Assembly: GCF_004337705.1 (NCBI RefSeq)
Contig: NZ_SKBU01000006.1
Span: 62,001 to 126,000, forward strand
Direction of reading: 5' to 3'
Source: Rubrobacter taiwanensis
Lineage (GTDB): Bacteria; Actinomycetota; Rubrobacteria; Rubrobacterales; Rubrobacteraceae
DNA: 64,000 bases
The first letter of the stretch is position 1; each line of letters starts with the position of its first letter. Under the pieces are notes generated by a model, which searched no databases, was not told the origin of the DNA, and saw only the letters and a program-made list of their open reading frames with translations. A program made the translations under genes and the position numbers. Shown piece after piece: positions 50,607-54,919 of the stretch.

Positions 50607-51305
50607 ATGCGTGAGAGATCTGGGAAACTACTCCCGCTGCTCTTCCTGGGCCTGCTGGCCGCGATCTGGGCCGCCGGAGCCCTTCGCGGCGAGACGGCCT
50701 CGGCGCAGCTCCGCTTCACAGAGGTGCGGGCGGCCGAGGAGCCGTCCACCACCTTCGTTCCCGCCAACGACGGGCTGCTGCTCGGCGAAACGAGCCCGGC
50801 CGAGCGCACGAGCGGCCGAACGCCGCCGGCGGCCGAACCCGTCCAGATCCCCCGGGAGCGAACACCAGACCCGGAGAGCCGGCATCCTGCCGCGGATCTC
50901 CGGCTCACCATCCCCCGGCTGGGGATAGCGGATCTGGCCGTTCCCACCGGATCGGGACAGGGGATGCTGGACCGGGTGGGGATTCTGCATCTGGAGCAGA
51001 GCGGCTACCCCTGGGAGCCGGGCTCGAACACGTACATCGCCGGGCACGCCATCGGCTACCCCGAGACCCGCATCCCCTACGTGTTCTACGAACTCGGAGA
51101 GCTGCGGCGGGGGGACGAGATCCTGCTCCAGGACCCTGCGGGCCGCACCTATACCTACCGGGTCTACGAGACGCTGGTCGTAGACCCGGAAGACTACTGG
51201 GTCACAGCTCCGGTCGCAGGCCGCACGATCGTCTCGCTCCAGACCTGCACCCCCATACCCTCCTTCGAGAAGCGACTGGTGGTGCGGGGCGAACTGGTCG
51301 GCTAG
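50607..51305 (+). CDS. Sortase (class D/E-like)
   Basis: A 232-residue transpeptidase: N-terminal signal anchor (about residues 8-27, LPLLFLGLLAAIWAAGAL), a Pro/Thr-rich linker (to about 95) and a sortase beta-barrel. The catalytic triad is visible: H147 in YIAGHAIG, C214 in SLQTCTPIP, and R223 in EKRLVVRG. The TLxTC-TP form resembles class E/D enzymes of actinobacteria. It would link proteins with an LPxTG-like or LAxTG-like signal to peptidoglycan or pili. No obvious sortase substrate is encoded in the window. It converges with the J-domain gene, sharing 4 bp. Confidence 0.9.
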   Translation: MRERSGKLLPLLFLGLLAAIWAAGALRGETASAQLRFTEVRAAEEPSTTFVPANDGLLLGETSPAERTSGRTPPAAEPVQIPRERTPDPESRHPAADLRLTIPRLGIADLAVPTGSGQGMLDRVGILHLEQSGYPWEPGSNTYIAGHAIGYPETRIPYVFYELGELRRGDEILLQDPAGRTYTYRVYETLVVDPEDYWVTAPVAGRTIVSLQTCTPIPSFEKRLVVRGELVG

Positions 51306-51727
51306 AGCTCGCCCCGGCGCATCAGGTAGCGCTCTATGGTGTCGTGGGCGGCATTTATCTCGGCCGTGATCTTCTCCGCGCGCCGCCGCTGCTCCGGGTC
51401 GGAGAAGCGGTCCGGATGGTACTTCTTGACCAGCTCGCGGCGGGCCTGATCCACGCTCTCAAGGCGGCTGTCCACGCGCAACCCCAGCCGGGCGTACGCC
51501 CTCCGAACCTCCTTCGGAGCGGTAGACCTGCGGGCCTTTGCGGCCTCGGTCCGCTCCCGCCACTCCTCGGAAGCCCCGCGCCAGGCCGCCCGGAACGCCC
51601 GCTTTACGTGCTCGAACTCCCGGCGGGCGTCTGAGGCGGCCTCCCTGCCGGGTGAGGAGTCCTCGCCCCGCTGCATGCCGGAGACGAATCCCCGCGCCAG
51701 ACGCCCGAGCCGCCGCGGGATGCTCAA
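51302..51727 (-). CDS. C-terminal J-domain (DnaJ-like) protein in the PspA operon
   Basis: A 141-residue protein: a charged helical N-terminal half (EFEHVKRAFRAAWRGASEEW) and a C-terminal J domain (about 75-135), with EVRRAYARLGL, the HPD motif at 104-106 in KKYHPDRFSDPEQ, and NAAHDTIERYL. It lacks the G/F-rich and zinc domains of DnaJ, so it is a class III J protein recruiting Hsp70 (DnaK) to a particular client. The start overlaps the preceding coiled-coil gene by 4 bp (ATGA), and the four genes from PspA on form one unit. The likely client is therefore PspA or its partners. Confidence 0.87.
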   Translation of the reverse strand: MSIPRRLGRLARGFVSGMQRGEDSSPGREAASDARREFEHVKRAFRAAWRGASEEWRERTEAAKARRSTAPKEVRRAYARLGLRVDSRLESVDQARRELVKKYHPDRFSDPEQRRRAEKITAEINAAHDTIERYLMRRGEL

Positions 51728-52305
51728 GAGCGCTCGCCCTCCTCATCCTCGGAGATCACCTCGGTCCTGTTCGGGTCGGAGAGAACCCGGGTGCTGTCCT
51801 CCTCCTCGAGGCCGAAGAACTCCCGCACCCGGTTCAGGTCGAGCAGACTCGCGCGGATGCGCTCAATGCGCTCCTCCTCGGCCCTCACGTCCTCCTCGCA
51901 CTTCTCCCGGGTGGCGTCTATCTCCTTGCGAAGGGAACGGATAATCTCATCCGCCGTGCGCTGCAGCTCCTCGATGCGCTCCTCGCCCTGCTCTATCTCG
52001 GACCGGAGCGCCTCCTCCCGGCCCCGGCTGGAGCGCAGAAACTCCCGGATGTCTACCCCGGCGGCCTCCAGCGTGCGCGTCACTATCTCGCGCGCGCTCC
52101 TGCGGGAGACGTCCCGGGGCAGGTTCTCGATAATCTCCACCGCCCGCTCGACGGAGAAGTCTCCCGACGCCCCGAGCCCTACCTCCTCTTCCGAGTAGTG
52201 CCTGGTCGAGCCCCGGCCCTCCTCACCCTCGGCAGAGCGGTAGAAGAGCCGGGAGAAGACACCCTCTCTGTGCCGGGTCTCGTCATCTCCTGCCACCGGC
52301 TTCAC
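51724..52305 (-). CDS. Acidic coiled-coil protein of unknown function in the PspA operon
   Basis: A 193-residue soluble protein. Residues 50-90 (SVERAVEIIENLPRDVSRRS, REIVTRTLEAAGVDIREFLR) look like a small helical domain. Residues 95-165 are a long heptad-rich coiled coil (EIEQGEERIEELQRTADEII, EIDATREKCEEDVRAEEERI), and the tail is strongly acidic. No signal peptide or membrane helix. It starts 5 bp after the two-helix membrane protein gene and overlaps the J-domain gene. No family was recognised; coiled-coil partnership with PspA is a reasonable inference. Confidence 0.72.
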   Translation of the reverse strand: MKPVAGDDETRHREGVFSRLFYRSAEGEEGRGSTRHYSEEEVGLGASGDFSVERAVEIIENLPRDVSRRSAREIVTRTLEAAGVDIREFLRSSRGREEALRSEIEQGEERIEELQRTADEIIRSLRKEIDATREKCEEDVRAEEERIERIRASLLDLNRVREFFGLEEEDSTRVLSDPNRTEVISEDEEGERS

Positions 52306-52310
52306 CCCCT

Positions 52311-53087
52311 CTAACTGCTGCCGCCCGCGGGCAGGTGCTCCGTGGCGCCGGATACCTCTCTCAGGCTCCGCCGGAAGAGCGCCACCCGGTCCCTCAGGTG
52401 CTCCAGGCTAGACTCCAGCACCACCGGCTCTTGAGCCTCCAGCGCCAGCACCTCGCCGCGCAGGCTGCTCACCAGCGCCTCGGCGCTCTCCAGCTGCGCG
52501 TTGATCACCCCTATGGCGTCCAGTGCCTCCCGGTAGCCGGCGAGCTCGCCCCGGCGGCTAGCCAGCGCGCTCTCGAAGGGCCGGCGCAGGGCGGGATCCC
52601 GCAGCTCGGAGAGATCCCGCTCCAGATCCCGGATCCGGCGCCGGAGCCCTTCGCGGTCTAGGCCTTCAAGGTAGCGCCTCAGCGCGCTGCGCCGGCGTGC
52701 CAGCTGCGCCATGCGATCGACCTCTTGCACGACGAGCAAGATCTCCTCCTCAAAGAGCGGCTCATACTCCTCCGGCAACAGCTCCAGGCTCTCCAGAAGC
52801 CCGGACTGCAGCTCGATGAGCCGCCGCATCTGCGGCGCGGCGAGCCGGTCCTCCCGCGCCACCGCCTCCAGAGCCCGCGCGTTGTGCCGCGCGCGGCGCT
52901 CCAGCTGGGTCTGCGCCCGCCTGCGAGCCCCGAGAACCCACCGCCCCGAGACCGCGATACCGGCCCCGGCCGCCAGAGCGAGCAGCGTCCACCCCTCGCC
53001 CACGGCCACGACTCCCACCGCGGAAGAGACGCCCAGAGCTCCCCACCGGGCGGCACGGCGTGCGGCGTCTACCGTTCGGCCGAACAC
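52311..53087 (-). CDS. Membrane-anchored coiled-coil protein of unknown function in the PspA operon
   Basis: A 258-residue protein with two adjacent N-terminal hydrophobic segments (about 15-32 and 34-50: GVSSAVGVVAVGEG, WTLLALAAGAGIAVSGRWVL). They form a membrane hairpin, followed by about 200 residues of charged helix (LERRARHNARALEAVA, RRYLEGLDREGLRRRIRDLE, VINAQLESAEALVSSLRGEV). No enzymatic motif. It lies 12 bp after pspA and 5 bp before the acidic coiled-coil gene. By position it could be the membrane receptor of PspA, a role held by unrelated PspB/C or PspM/N proteins elsewhere. Confidence 0.75.
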   Translation of the reverse strand: MFGRTVDAARRAARWGALGVSSAVGVVAVGEGWTLLALAAGAGIAVSGRWVLGARRRAQTQLERRARHNARALEAVAREDRLAAPQMRRLIELQSGLLESLELLPEEYEPLFEEEILLVVQEVDRMAQLARRRSALRRYLEGLDREGLRRRIRDLERDLSELRDPALRRPFESALASRRGELAGYREALDAIGVINAQLESAEALVSSLRGEVLALEAQEPVVLESSLEHLRDRVALFRRSLREVSGATEHLPAGGSS

Positions 53088-53099
53088 CAGCTCTCCATC

Positions 53100-53852
53100 C
53101 TAGCGGCCGGTCTCCTCCGGCCGCTCGCTCTCCCCGGCGGGCCGCTCGACCGTCTCCTCCTGAGGACCTTCCAGCTCCCCGGCGGACTTGAGGCCCATCT
53201 GAATCTCCATGAGTTCCAGCTCCCGCTCGGCCTCGAGCCGCTTCACGTCCACCTCGGCGGCCTGGATCTGGCGCTCCACCTCGCTGGTGCCCAGTTCGCC
53301 CACGGCCTCGGCCTCGTACAGCGACTGCCGCACGGCCTGCCGGGCCTTCTCCAGATCGCGGGAGGAGTCGGAGAGCGAGATCTGCGCCCGCGCCTCGTTC
53401 GCCGTCTGCAGGGCCCGCGCCCGCTGGTGCTCCTCCAGCAGCGCGGCCCGCTCCCGCACCACCTCGTTGTAGCGCTTCTCTTGATCGCGGAAGGCCCGCT
53501 CCATCTCCTCGGAGTTCCTGCGGGCGCTCTCCAGCCGGCCCTCGATCTCTGCGAGCTGGTTCTGAATCTCCTGCTTCTGCTGGATCACCTGCAGCGCCGC
53601 CTCCCGCTGGCCGCGTGCGGCCAGCTCCCGCGCCTGCCGCTCCCGGGCGGCGACGAGCTTGCGCTTCTCGGCCGCGTCGTTGGTGAGCATCTTCTCGTAG
53701 GCCATGGTCTTGGCCGCCGCGACCTGAAGCTTCTTCAGGTTGCTCAGCTCGTCCTGTACCGCATTCTCGAGCAGGACTTCCGGGTTGCGCTGCTCGACTC
53801 CGGAGATGAAGCGTCCGAAGAAGCCCCGGATAACTCTAAGTAGTCTGCCCAT
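53100..53852 (-). CDS. pspA: PspA/IM30 (VIPP1) family membrane-remodelling protein
   Basis: ATG 53852 gives 250 residues; a TTG six codons earlier is an alternative. An amphipathic N-terminus (MGRLLRVIRGFFGRFISGVE) is followed by the long helical hairpin of the PspA/IM30 family: NPEVLLENAVQDELSNLKKL, KMLTNDAAEKRKLVAARER, and further coiled coil to about residue 215, then a Pro/Glu-rich tail. PspA/VIPP1 proteins are bacterial ESCRT-III relatives that polymerise on stressed membranes. It heads a tight operon with two coiled-coil proteins (one membrane-anchored) and a J-domain protein. A TATAAT box lies about 50 bp upstream. Confidence 0.9.
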   Translation of the reverse strand: MGRLLRVIRGFFGRFISGVEQRNPEVLLENAVQDELSNLKKLQVAAAKTMAYEKMLTNDAAEKRKLVAARERQARELAARGQREAALQVIQQKQEIQNQLAEIEGRLESARRNSEEMERAFRDQEKRYNEVVRERAALLEEHQRARALQTANEARAQISLSDSSRDLEKARQAVRQSLYEAEAVGELGTSEVERQIQAAEVDVKRLEAERELELMEIQMGLKSAGELEGPQEETVERPAGESERPEETGR

Positions 53853-53905
53853 CGGCCCTGCTACCCCCAAGGATGGTAGAGATCTCTACGGCCCGTCCGG
53901 CTGCG

Positions 53906-53911
53906 ATTATA
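53906..53911 (-). promoter_or_regulatory. -10 box (TATAAT) of the pspA operon
   Basis: TATAAT on the minus strand, 53 bp ahead of the pspA ATG. The -35 region about 17 bp upstream (TTCGGC) is a poor match to TTGACA, so activator or alternative-sigma control is possible. Confidence 0.5.
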
Positions 53912-53950
53912 CCATCAGGGGCCGGGCTGCCGAATGGGGCGAAACCCGTA

Positions 53951-54919
53951 CTACTGGGCGGCCCGGCGGGCGGGCTCCGTCCCCCGGCCGGCGACTACTA
54001 TGGCGCTCGGGGACTCCATCTCGAAGGCCGCCTCCAGCGCCCGACCGGCGGCGAGCAGCAGCTCCTGCGGGGTGCGCGCATCCCGCGGGTAGATGGCCGC
54101 CCCGGCCCGCGTCTCCCTGGATCCGAGCGAGCTGGCGGCCGCCAGCACCCTCCGCGCCGCGCTCTCGACCACCCGGTCGTCCGCGCCGCTGAGGACGAGC
54201 CCGAACACGTCGCCCTCCCCGAGCAGGATGGGGTCCTCCACGCGCTGGCTGACGCGCTCCAGCAGCATGTCCACATCCTCCAGCTCCCGGCCGGGATCTA
54301 CCAGGATTACGGCCACCGGAACTCCCCGCCGCTCCGAGAGCTCGTAGGTTACGCGCTCCAGCAGCAGCGAGCCGTCGGGGTCGAAGGCGAACTCATCTTC
54401 GAGAGGAGCCTCTTCCTCCTTTTCCCGAGCGGTTAAAAAACCCAAGGTCCCGGCCGCAGCGAACGCCACTAGCCGGAAGAGGATCAGGCTCGGAGCCACC
54501 ACACCGCCGGCGAGACCGGGCAGCATCGCCAGAGCGTAACCCACTAGCGTCGCGCCCAGAGCCGCAAGCGGAATGATGCGGCTCCGGTGCAACGCCGCGG
54601 CGAGCAGCAGCGGGAAGAAGAGCGCATACAGCTCGCTGGAGGCTCCGCCGGTGAAGAAGGTCAGTGAGGCGAGCAGCGCCGCGAAGTACGCATAGCCCAC
54701 CGCACAGGCCACATCGGAGAACTGCTGCTGCGGCAGGAGCCCGGCGGCGACCGCCGAGGCTACCCACAGCGAGACCAGCGTGTAGAGCGGGATGTAGGCG
54801 ACCGCCGGAGTGTACGCGGGCTGGTGCACGAGGAAGACCGCAACCCCGATCAGCGCGAGCGAGAGCAGGGCGAAACCCTTGAAAACCCTCGCGTTCTGCT
54901 GGCTTCCTGCCGCCATCAT
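53951..54919 (-). CDS. Membrane protein with degenerate GGDEF-like domain
   Basis: A 322-residue protein from ATG 54919; a GTG or the ATG one codon later are alternatives, and no ribosome-binding site stands out. Six hydrophobic helices (about 13-180) resemble a MASE-type sensor. A short acidic linker precedes a GGDEF-fold region (about 195-315): LLERVTYELSERRGVPVAVI, VILVDPG, and the signature position reads GEGDVFGLVLSGAD instead of GGDEF. Synthesis of c-di-GMP is therefore unlikely. It could be an inactive receptor or have another nucleotide ligand. It follows a lipoprotein gene by 43 bp. Confidence 0.75.
   Translation of the reverse strand: MMAAGSQQNARVFKGFALLSLALIGVAVFLVHQPAYTPAVAYIPLYTLVSLWVASAVAAGLLPQQQFSDVACAVGYAYFAALLASLTFFTGGASSELYALFFPLLLAAALHRSRIIPLAALGATLVGYALAMLPGLAGGVVAPSLILFRLVAFAAAGTLGFLTAREKEEEAPLEDEFAFDPDGSLLLERVTYELSERRGVPVAVILVDPGRELEDVDMLLERVSQRVEDPILLGEGDVFGLVLSGADDRVVESAARRVLAAASSLGSRETRAGAAIYPRDARTPQELLLAAGRALEAAFEMESPSAIVVAGRGTEPARRAAQ

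Follow-up and report, generated by a model that had tools for sequence, protein, structure and literature searches.

Why should the gene for PspA, a bacterial relative of ESCRT-III, be found in one tight array with the gene for a J-domain protein? The question is raised by a stretch of 64,000 nucleotides from Rubrobacter taiwanensis (contig NZ_SKBU01000006.1, positions 62,001 to 126,000), here called the window, in which four genes follow one another on the minus strand: pspA (53100-53852, 250 amino acids), two genes for helical proteins that we term cc1 (52311-53087, 258 amino acids) and cc2 (51724-52305, 193 amino acids), and the gene for a J protein of 141 amino acids (51302-51727). The host genome has a size of 3.0 Mb, and its relatives in what follows are Rubrobacteria. 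A first-pass annotation of the window had put the spacing of the array at 12 and 5 bp, with an overlap of 4 bp between the last two genes, and coordinates, strand and spacing were all verified in the sequence. New in comparison with that annotation are the promoters, the acidic-Thr motifs of cc2, the amphipathic character of the J N-terminus and the parallel in Bacteroidota. The array is best explained as an operon of the phage-shock type that protects the membrane and supplies PspA along with three partners, and we infer, at a probability of roughly 60%, that the J protein directs DnaK to the PspA-coated membrane, where PspA polymers would be remodelled.

The PspA of the window, the only one of the host genome, scores 60.6 bits against PF04012 (cut-off 33.9), its residues 3-214 match solved Vipp1 chains by sequence (best E 7.8e-5), and its N-terminal helix alpha0, GRLLRVIRGFFGRFISGVE, is amphipathic, with a hydrophobic moment of 0.68 over residues 3-20. 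A single copy above the cut-off is present in 34 of 39 Rubrobacteria genomes. Near-complete PF04012 matches reach about 43-69 bits in Rubrobacteria and mostly 76-187 bits in other Actinomycetota, and judged by sequence the Rubrobacteria protein is a divergent PspA. Its start is taken as the ATG at 53852, inside the listed frame 53100-53870, and this choice is supported by a probable ribosome-binding site, GGGGGTAG (53861-53868, minus strand), that is kept in many relatives.

The J protein, translated from a TTG start codon, matches PF00226 with 30.1 bits (cut-off 27.8), which bears out the C-terminal J domain and the HPD motif at residues 104-106 (51410-51418) that had been read from the sequence before. 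An alignment of 25 J relatives shows the HPD motif to be invariant and the basic, amphipathic N-terminal helix, SIPRRLGRLARGFVSGMQR (51668-51724, hydrophobic moment 0.81), to be the best-conserved region outside the J domain, with R6, G8, R9 and G13 invariant. All relatives, from Rubrobacteria or not, are short and consist of an N-terminal helix, a variable linker and a C-terminal J domain; the window protein has no separate client-binding domain. The array had also been called self-contained, and this proved too strong, as the host genome encodes DnaK (one full-length copy), three further J-domain proteins and PspC at other places. The PspC gene lies on another contig (C15), and in the relatives it is likewise found apart from pspA.

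How firmly the genes belong together was assessed in the neighbourhoods of pspA in 34 Rubrobacteria, five of which end at a contig edge and 29 of which are readable. The order and orientation pspA-cc1-cc2-J are kept in 28 of the 29; at the remaining locus (L108, genome G034) cc1 and cc2 share one frame, in which the cc1 portion is cut short at its end and the cc2 portion at its start; this may be a gene fusion or an assembly deletion. Gaps between the array genes range from -11 to +39 nt across the readable loci, the single larger value (152, L097) being a start-codon miscall, and two arrays broken by a contig end resume as cc1-cc2-J on other contigs. Outside this invariant interior, the upstream gene lies 41-668 nt away, and J and xerC are separated by anything between hardly a gap and a few kb, an interval that holds no sortase gene, one or two. 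A J domain is encoded near pspA in 29 of the 34 Rubrobacteria neighbourhoods versus 0 of 80 in other Actinomycetota, in a survey that covers about 4.5 kb per side, contig permitting. cc1 was found in 34 and cc2 in 32 of the 39 Rubrobacteria genomes; among about 357 genomes of other Actinomycetota there was no convincing match to cc1 (one weak coiled-coil match, E 1.2e-5) and none at all to cc2. The J and coiled-coil genes thus do not occur mostly without pspA, a prospect raised in the first-pass annotation: all three track it in Rubrobacteria, barring a lone cc2 paralogue. Given so strong a genetic linkage, the J protein may be dedicated to PspA.

The linkage extends beyond the class. J relatives were first gathered by J sequence alone, blind to PspA, and PspA adjoins J in five of the 51 loci from outside Rubrobacteria, all five in Bacteroidota. 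At three of them (L010, L018 and L026) the two genes are divergent, and at the other two (L034 and L025) J is followed by PspA with a 4-bp overlap. The broad PspA profile recovered 80 of 80 other PspA proteins, as against 4 of 80 for a profile derived from Rubrobacteria; its seed included some non-PspA frames, and key matches were therefore rechecked with Pfam, which confirms PspA at L010, L026, L034 and L025. We then examined 70 PspA neighbourhoods from the order Cytophagales, whose genomes often hold two groups of PspA paralogues (L357-L376 and L377-L396): 20 of group A, 20 of group B and the best 30 matches. A small J gene lies directly upstream of PspA on the same strand in 13 of the 20 group B loci, the lower-scoring paralogue, versus none of the 20 in the higher-scoring group A; the 13 pairs come from related genomes and are not 13 independent events. 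Among the best 30 matches of the order a J neighbour occurs in two, both already among the loci gathered by J sequence. The arrangements vary, with J before PspA, divergent from it or, in Rubrobacteria, as the fourth gene, and the PspA-J linkage is not unique to Rubrobacteria and recurs in a second, distant phylum.

Most N-termini of the J proteins from outside Rubrobacteria resemble that of PspA itself. Against an alpha0 profile built from 132 PspA N-termini, 14 of 19 J N-termini from outside Rubrobacteria score at least 8 bits, a value reached by none of 1822 decoys, which were N-termini from the same loci; examples of such starts are MFDRIFKIIRANIGDALSQ in a J protein (L393) and MGIFSRIADIFKANINDTLDRAEDP in a PspA (L348). 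The earlier proposal of a dedicated J protein that recruits DnaK gains support both from the recurrence in Bacteroidota and from the alpha0-like N-termini found there. Small J proteins of similar build were also seen in Wallbacteria, Deltaproteobacteria and Cloacimonadota (L006, L013, L029, L051 and L052), some with alpha0-like starts, with PspA not nearby but elsewhere in the genome. This type of J protein co-occurs with PspA in 15 of 15 genomes, a count that comes without a matched control and is only suggestive.

Transcription of the array appears to start in front of pspA. In 33 of 34 Rubrobacteria loci the motif TATAAT lies 45-87 nt 5' of pspA (shuffle mean 0.24); it reads as the extended -10 element TGNTATAAT in 29 of the 34 and is represented in the window by TGGTATAAT (53906-53914, minus strand). 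In none of the 34 loci does it precede the array's upstream gene or cc1, cc2 or J, and as the promoter stands before pspA only, the array is one transcription unit. Between the promoter and the ribosome-binding site the leader of the window contains a perfect 14-bp palindrome, GTAGAGATCTCTAC (53876-53889), that is not obvious in relatives. In 24 of the 34 loci pspA is in addition preceded by GAAAC-N15..18-CGTA (shuffles expect 0.06), with three further loci carrying the site with one mismatch, and the element stands before none of the array's other genes. Its shape is one that we take to be that of a sigma-W-type promoter for an extracytoplasmic function (ECF) sigma factor. The same element is found about 31-38 nt 5' of an ECF sigma gene in all four genomes tested, the host included: these orthologous genes are preceded by GAAAC-N16-CGTA (L274, L275, L276 and L277, with L275 from the host, G000 C15), and the sigma gene is followed, with a 4-bp overlap, by one for an anti-sigma-like membrane protein (zf-HC2). 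Stray matches turned up at two of the remaining ECF loci that were scanned. From this we infer that the ECF sigma factor with the matching element controls pspA in the relatives. PspC does not appear to be a member of this regulon, the site being absent in 20 of 20 pspC loci.

The two remaining partners gave no convincing match in Pfam or NCBIfam, and weak Pfam matches to V-SNARE, PqqD, Mis14 and DUF3340 were dismissed as coiled-coil noise. Comparison of their folds with the PDB yielded nothing at E<=0.001; weak similarities of cc1 to BAR-domain and designed-bundle folds stayed at TM-scores around 0.2-0.3 and were set aside. On this basis cc1 and cc2 are, as far as sequence and model comparison can tell, new families. 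The AlphaFold2 model of cc1 (mean predicted local distance difference test score, pLDDT, 82) shows a confident helical bundle, presumably cytoplasmic, and an N-terminal hydrophobic hairpin of residues about 4-55 (52923-53078), delimited from hydropathy, alignment and two model helices (4-28 and 34-79) of low confidence. The hairpin is basic on both flanks, so that both ends are probably cytoplasmic; this leaves no extracytoplasmic domain for the membrane receptor that cc1 had been called, and what stands of that proposal is a plausible docking anchor for PspA.

For cc2 the description as an acidic coiled-coil protein was borne out, with a net charge of -18 (family mean -23) and AlphaFold2 helices at 52-60, 68-81 and 86-164, that is, a small helical head followed by a long coiled coil (51814-52050, pLDDT about 88-98 per block) between disordered N- and C-terminal ends. 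The acidic C-terminal tail (51727-51810) carries the threonine motifs DSTRVL (T172) and NRTEVI (T181), the T181 column being invariant in the family alignment. Relatives have acidic-Thr motifs in their tails, among them DETQVI and DDTQVL (consensus D[DE]TQV[IL]); the strict form occurs 48 times where shuffles expect 0.23, a count inflated by the kinship of the members, and a relaxed form is present in 29 of 29 cc2 proteins. These motifs resemble kinase/FHA sites and are predicted to be phosphorylated; they recall GarA, in which an ETTS motif in a disordered tail is phosphorylated (PMC5448819). The host genome encodes FHA domains and an FhaA/FhaB/phosphatase-like cluster, and its FhaA-like protein contains GETRIF, similar to the cc2 motifs. 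On the contig of the window and outside the window itself lies a 925-residue frame with two FHA domains (C49:43079-43726), a possible reader of cc2 phosphothreonine. The lone second cc2, from one metagenome-assembled genome (L190, G033 C363, 1477-2163), is near a tatC-like gene and has eroded threonine motifs; its contig carries neither pspA nor cc1 nor J.

In the mechanism that we propose, an alpha0-like helix of the J protein would bind the membrane surface occupied by PspA or insert into the PspA coat. From this position at the membrane the J protein would recruit DnaK, which would loosen or disassemble the PspA polymers, and the two together would do for PspA what Vps4 does for ESCRT-III. 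cc1 would anchor PspA at the membrane, comparable to LiaI with LiaH or YdjH with PspA in Bacillus subtilis, and cc2 would serve as a soluble adaptor: Ser/Thr kinases would phosphorylate its disordered tails, FHA proteins would recognise them in that state, and the PspA coat would thereby be tied to cell-wall signalling. We place less confidence in these roles of cc1 and cc2 than in the step of J protein and DnaK. Envelope stress would, in most relatives, turn the operon on through an ECF factor of the sigma-W type, and the operon of the window would depend on its housekeeping-type promoter alone. In chloroplasts, HSP70B works with CDJ2 and CGE1 both to build and to take down VIPP1 assemblies, and its place can be filled by E. 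coli DnaK (PMC6882379), a precedent that makes remodelling of the PspA coat by DnaK reasonable. Put more generally, the odds seem about even that small proteins combining a PspA-type alpha0 helix with a J domain, and linked to pspA in at least two phyla, are dedicated PspA disassembly adaptors with a Vps4-like role exerted through DnaK.

Several observations weigh against this mechanism. Next to the majority of pspA genes there is no J gene, and the flanking genes of the array are syntenic as well, so that its conservation within the class is partly inheritance and by itself no proof of function. The N-termini of the Rubrobacteria J proteins score no better than shuffles on the general alpha0 profile and only modestly on one built from Rubrobacteria (mean 4.1 bits, shuffles -0.1); the latter value is only suggestive, and kinship of the J N-terminus to PspA alpha0 is not claimed inside this class. 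Note that the window also departs from its relatives, as its pspA has no ECF site even when two mismatches are allowed and its cc2 lacks the strict acidic-Thr motif, DSTRVL and NRTEVI being degenerate forms. Finally, the cc1 hairpin is weakly hydrophobic and borderline for transmembrane segments, with a best 17-residue hydropathy of 1.4-2.2.

Part of this evidence could also be read in other ways. The J protein and DnaK might serve damaged or mislocalised membrane proteins at sites marked by PspA, with PspA itself not a client; a J protein with a membrane-type amphipathic helix and no client-binding domain of its own would suit such quality control, as would the envelope-stress control in relatives. 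Outside Rubrobacteria, however, it is PspA itself that J is linked to, and the majority of the J proteins there carry a PspA-type alpha0, which points to PspA or the surface it binds, and we regard quality control as rather unlikely. If instead cc1 and cc2 formed a signalling scaffold regulated by kinases and FHA proteins, with PspA and J as accessories, then J protein and DnaK would regulate cc2 or the complex and not the coat. The conserved acidic-Thr motifs in the disordered cc2 tails and the FHA inventory of the genome agree with this, but the PspA-J pair exists in Bacteroidota, and cc1 and cc2 are confined to Rubrobacteria within the Actinomycetota sample. The J protein therefore goes with PspA and not with cc1 and cc2, and the scaffold appears improbable.

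The synteny noted above also permits the reading that four unrelated envelope genes were co-inherited with no common function, as the neighbours ligA, the GGDEF-like gene, xerC and gltB also hold their positions across relatives. Against this stand the overlapping genes, the single promoter region and the invariant interior between variable flanks, as well as the fact that the PspA-J pair is met again, differently arranged, in another phylum, and co-inheritance alone is very improbable. The GGDEF-like gene, directly upstream of pspA (53951-54919), encodes a membrane protein with a degenerate domain (PF00990 below cut-off) and is found in most relatives.

Among known systems, the array shares with chloroplast HSP70B-CDJ2-CGE1 the use, here predicted, of a specific J protein with Hsp70 on a polymer of the PspA/VIPP1 family. 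It differs in that the J gene lies in or beside a bacterial pspA operon and in that an amphipathic helix precedes the J domain, which is at the C-terminus; beyond the J domain no likeness to CDJ2 is claimed. The B. subtilis pspA-ydjGHI operon, which is under sigma-W control (PMC8581546, PMC3498285), resembles the array in having pspA as the first gene of several, with membrane and soluble partners, and the sigma-W-type promoter of most relatives, though not of the window. The partners are different, namely two new helical families and a J protein, and no Pfam match to the SPFH partner (YdjI) was found for cc1 or cc2. With B. subtilis LiaIH the array has in common a small membrane protein, probably a docking anchor, beside a PspA-family protein, but cc1 has a helical bundle of about 200 residues and no sequence relation was found. 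In contrast to the classical Psp operons with PspB/PspC or PspM/PspN/ClgR, PspC is here encoded away from pspA.

Surveys of PspA contexts list AAA+, CesT/Tir, band-7 and PspC proteins as chaperone-like or membrane partners (PMC11237479, PMC9239133), and DnaJ, J domain and Rubrobacter are unmentioned in their main texts, to which our search was confined, supplements lying outside it. In the literature on J-domain proteins with PspA we found only the chloroplast/cyanobacterial system, supplements and subscription papers again lying outside the search. The co-chaperone principle is thus already known, and it is the bacterial gene set and the combination of alpha0 and J domain that we have not found described. 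The pairing of PspA with a J protein suggests a way in which bacteria that have no dedicated disassembly engine might dismantle their PspA coats, and the existence, in one phylum, of J proteins that are linked to pspA and carry a PspA-like helix allows this idea to be tested directly with three or four proteins in pure form.

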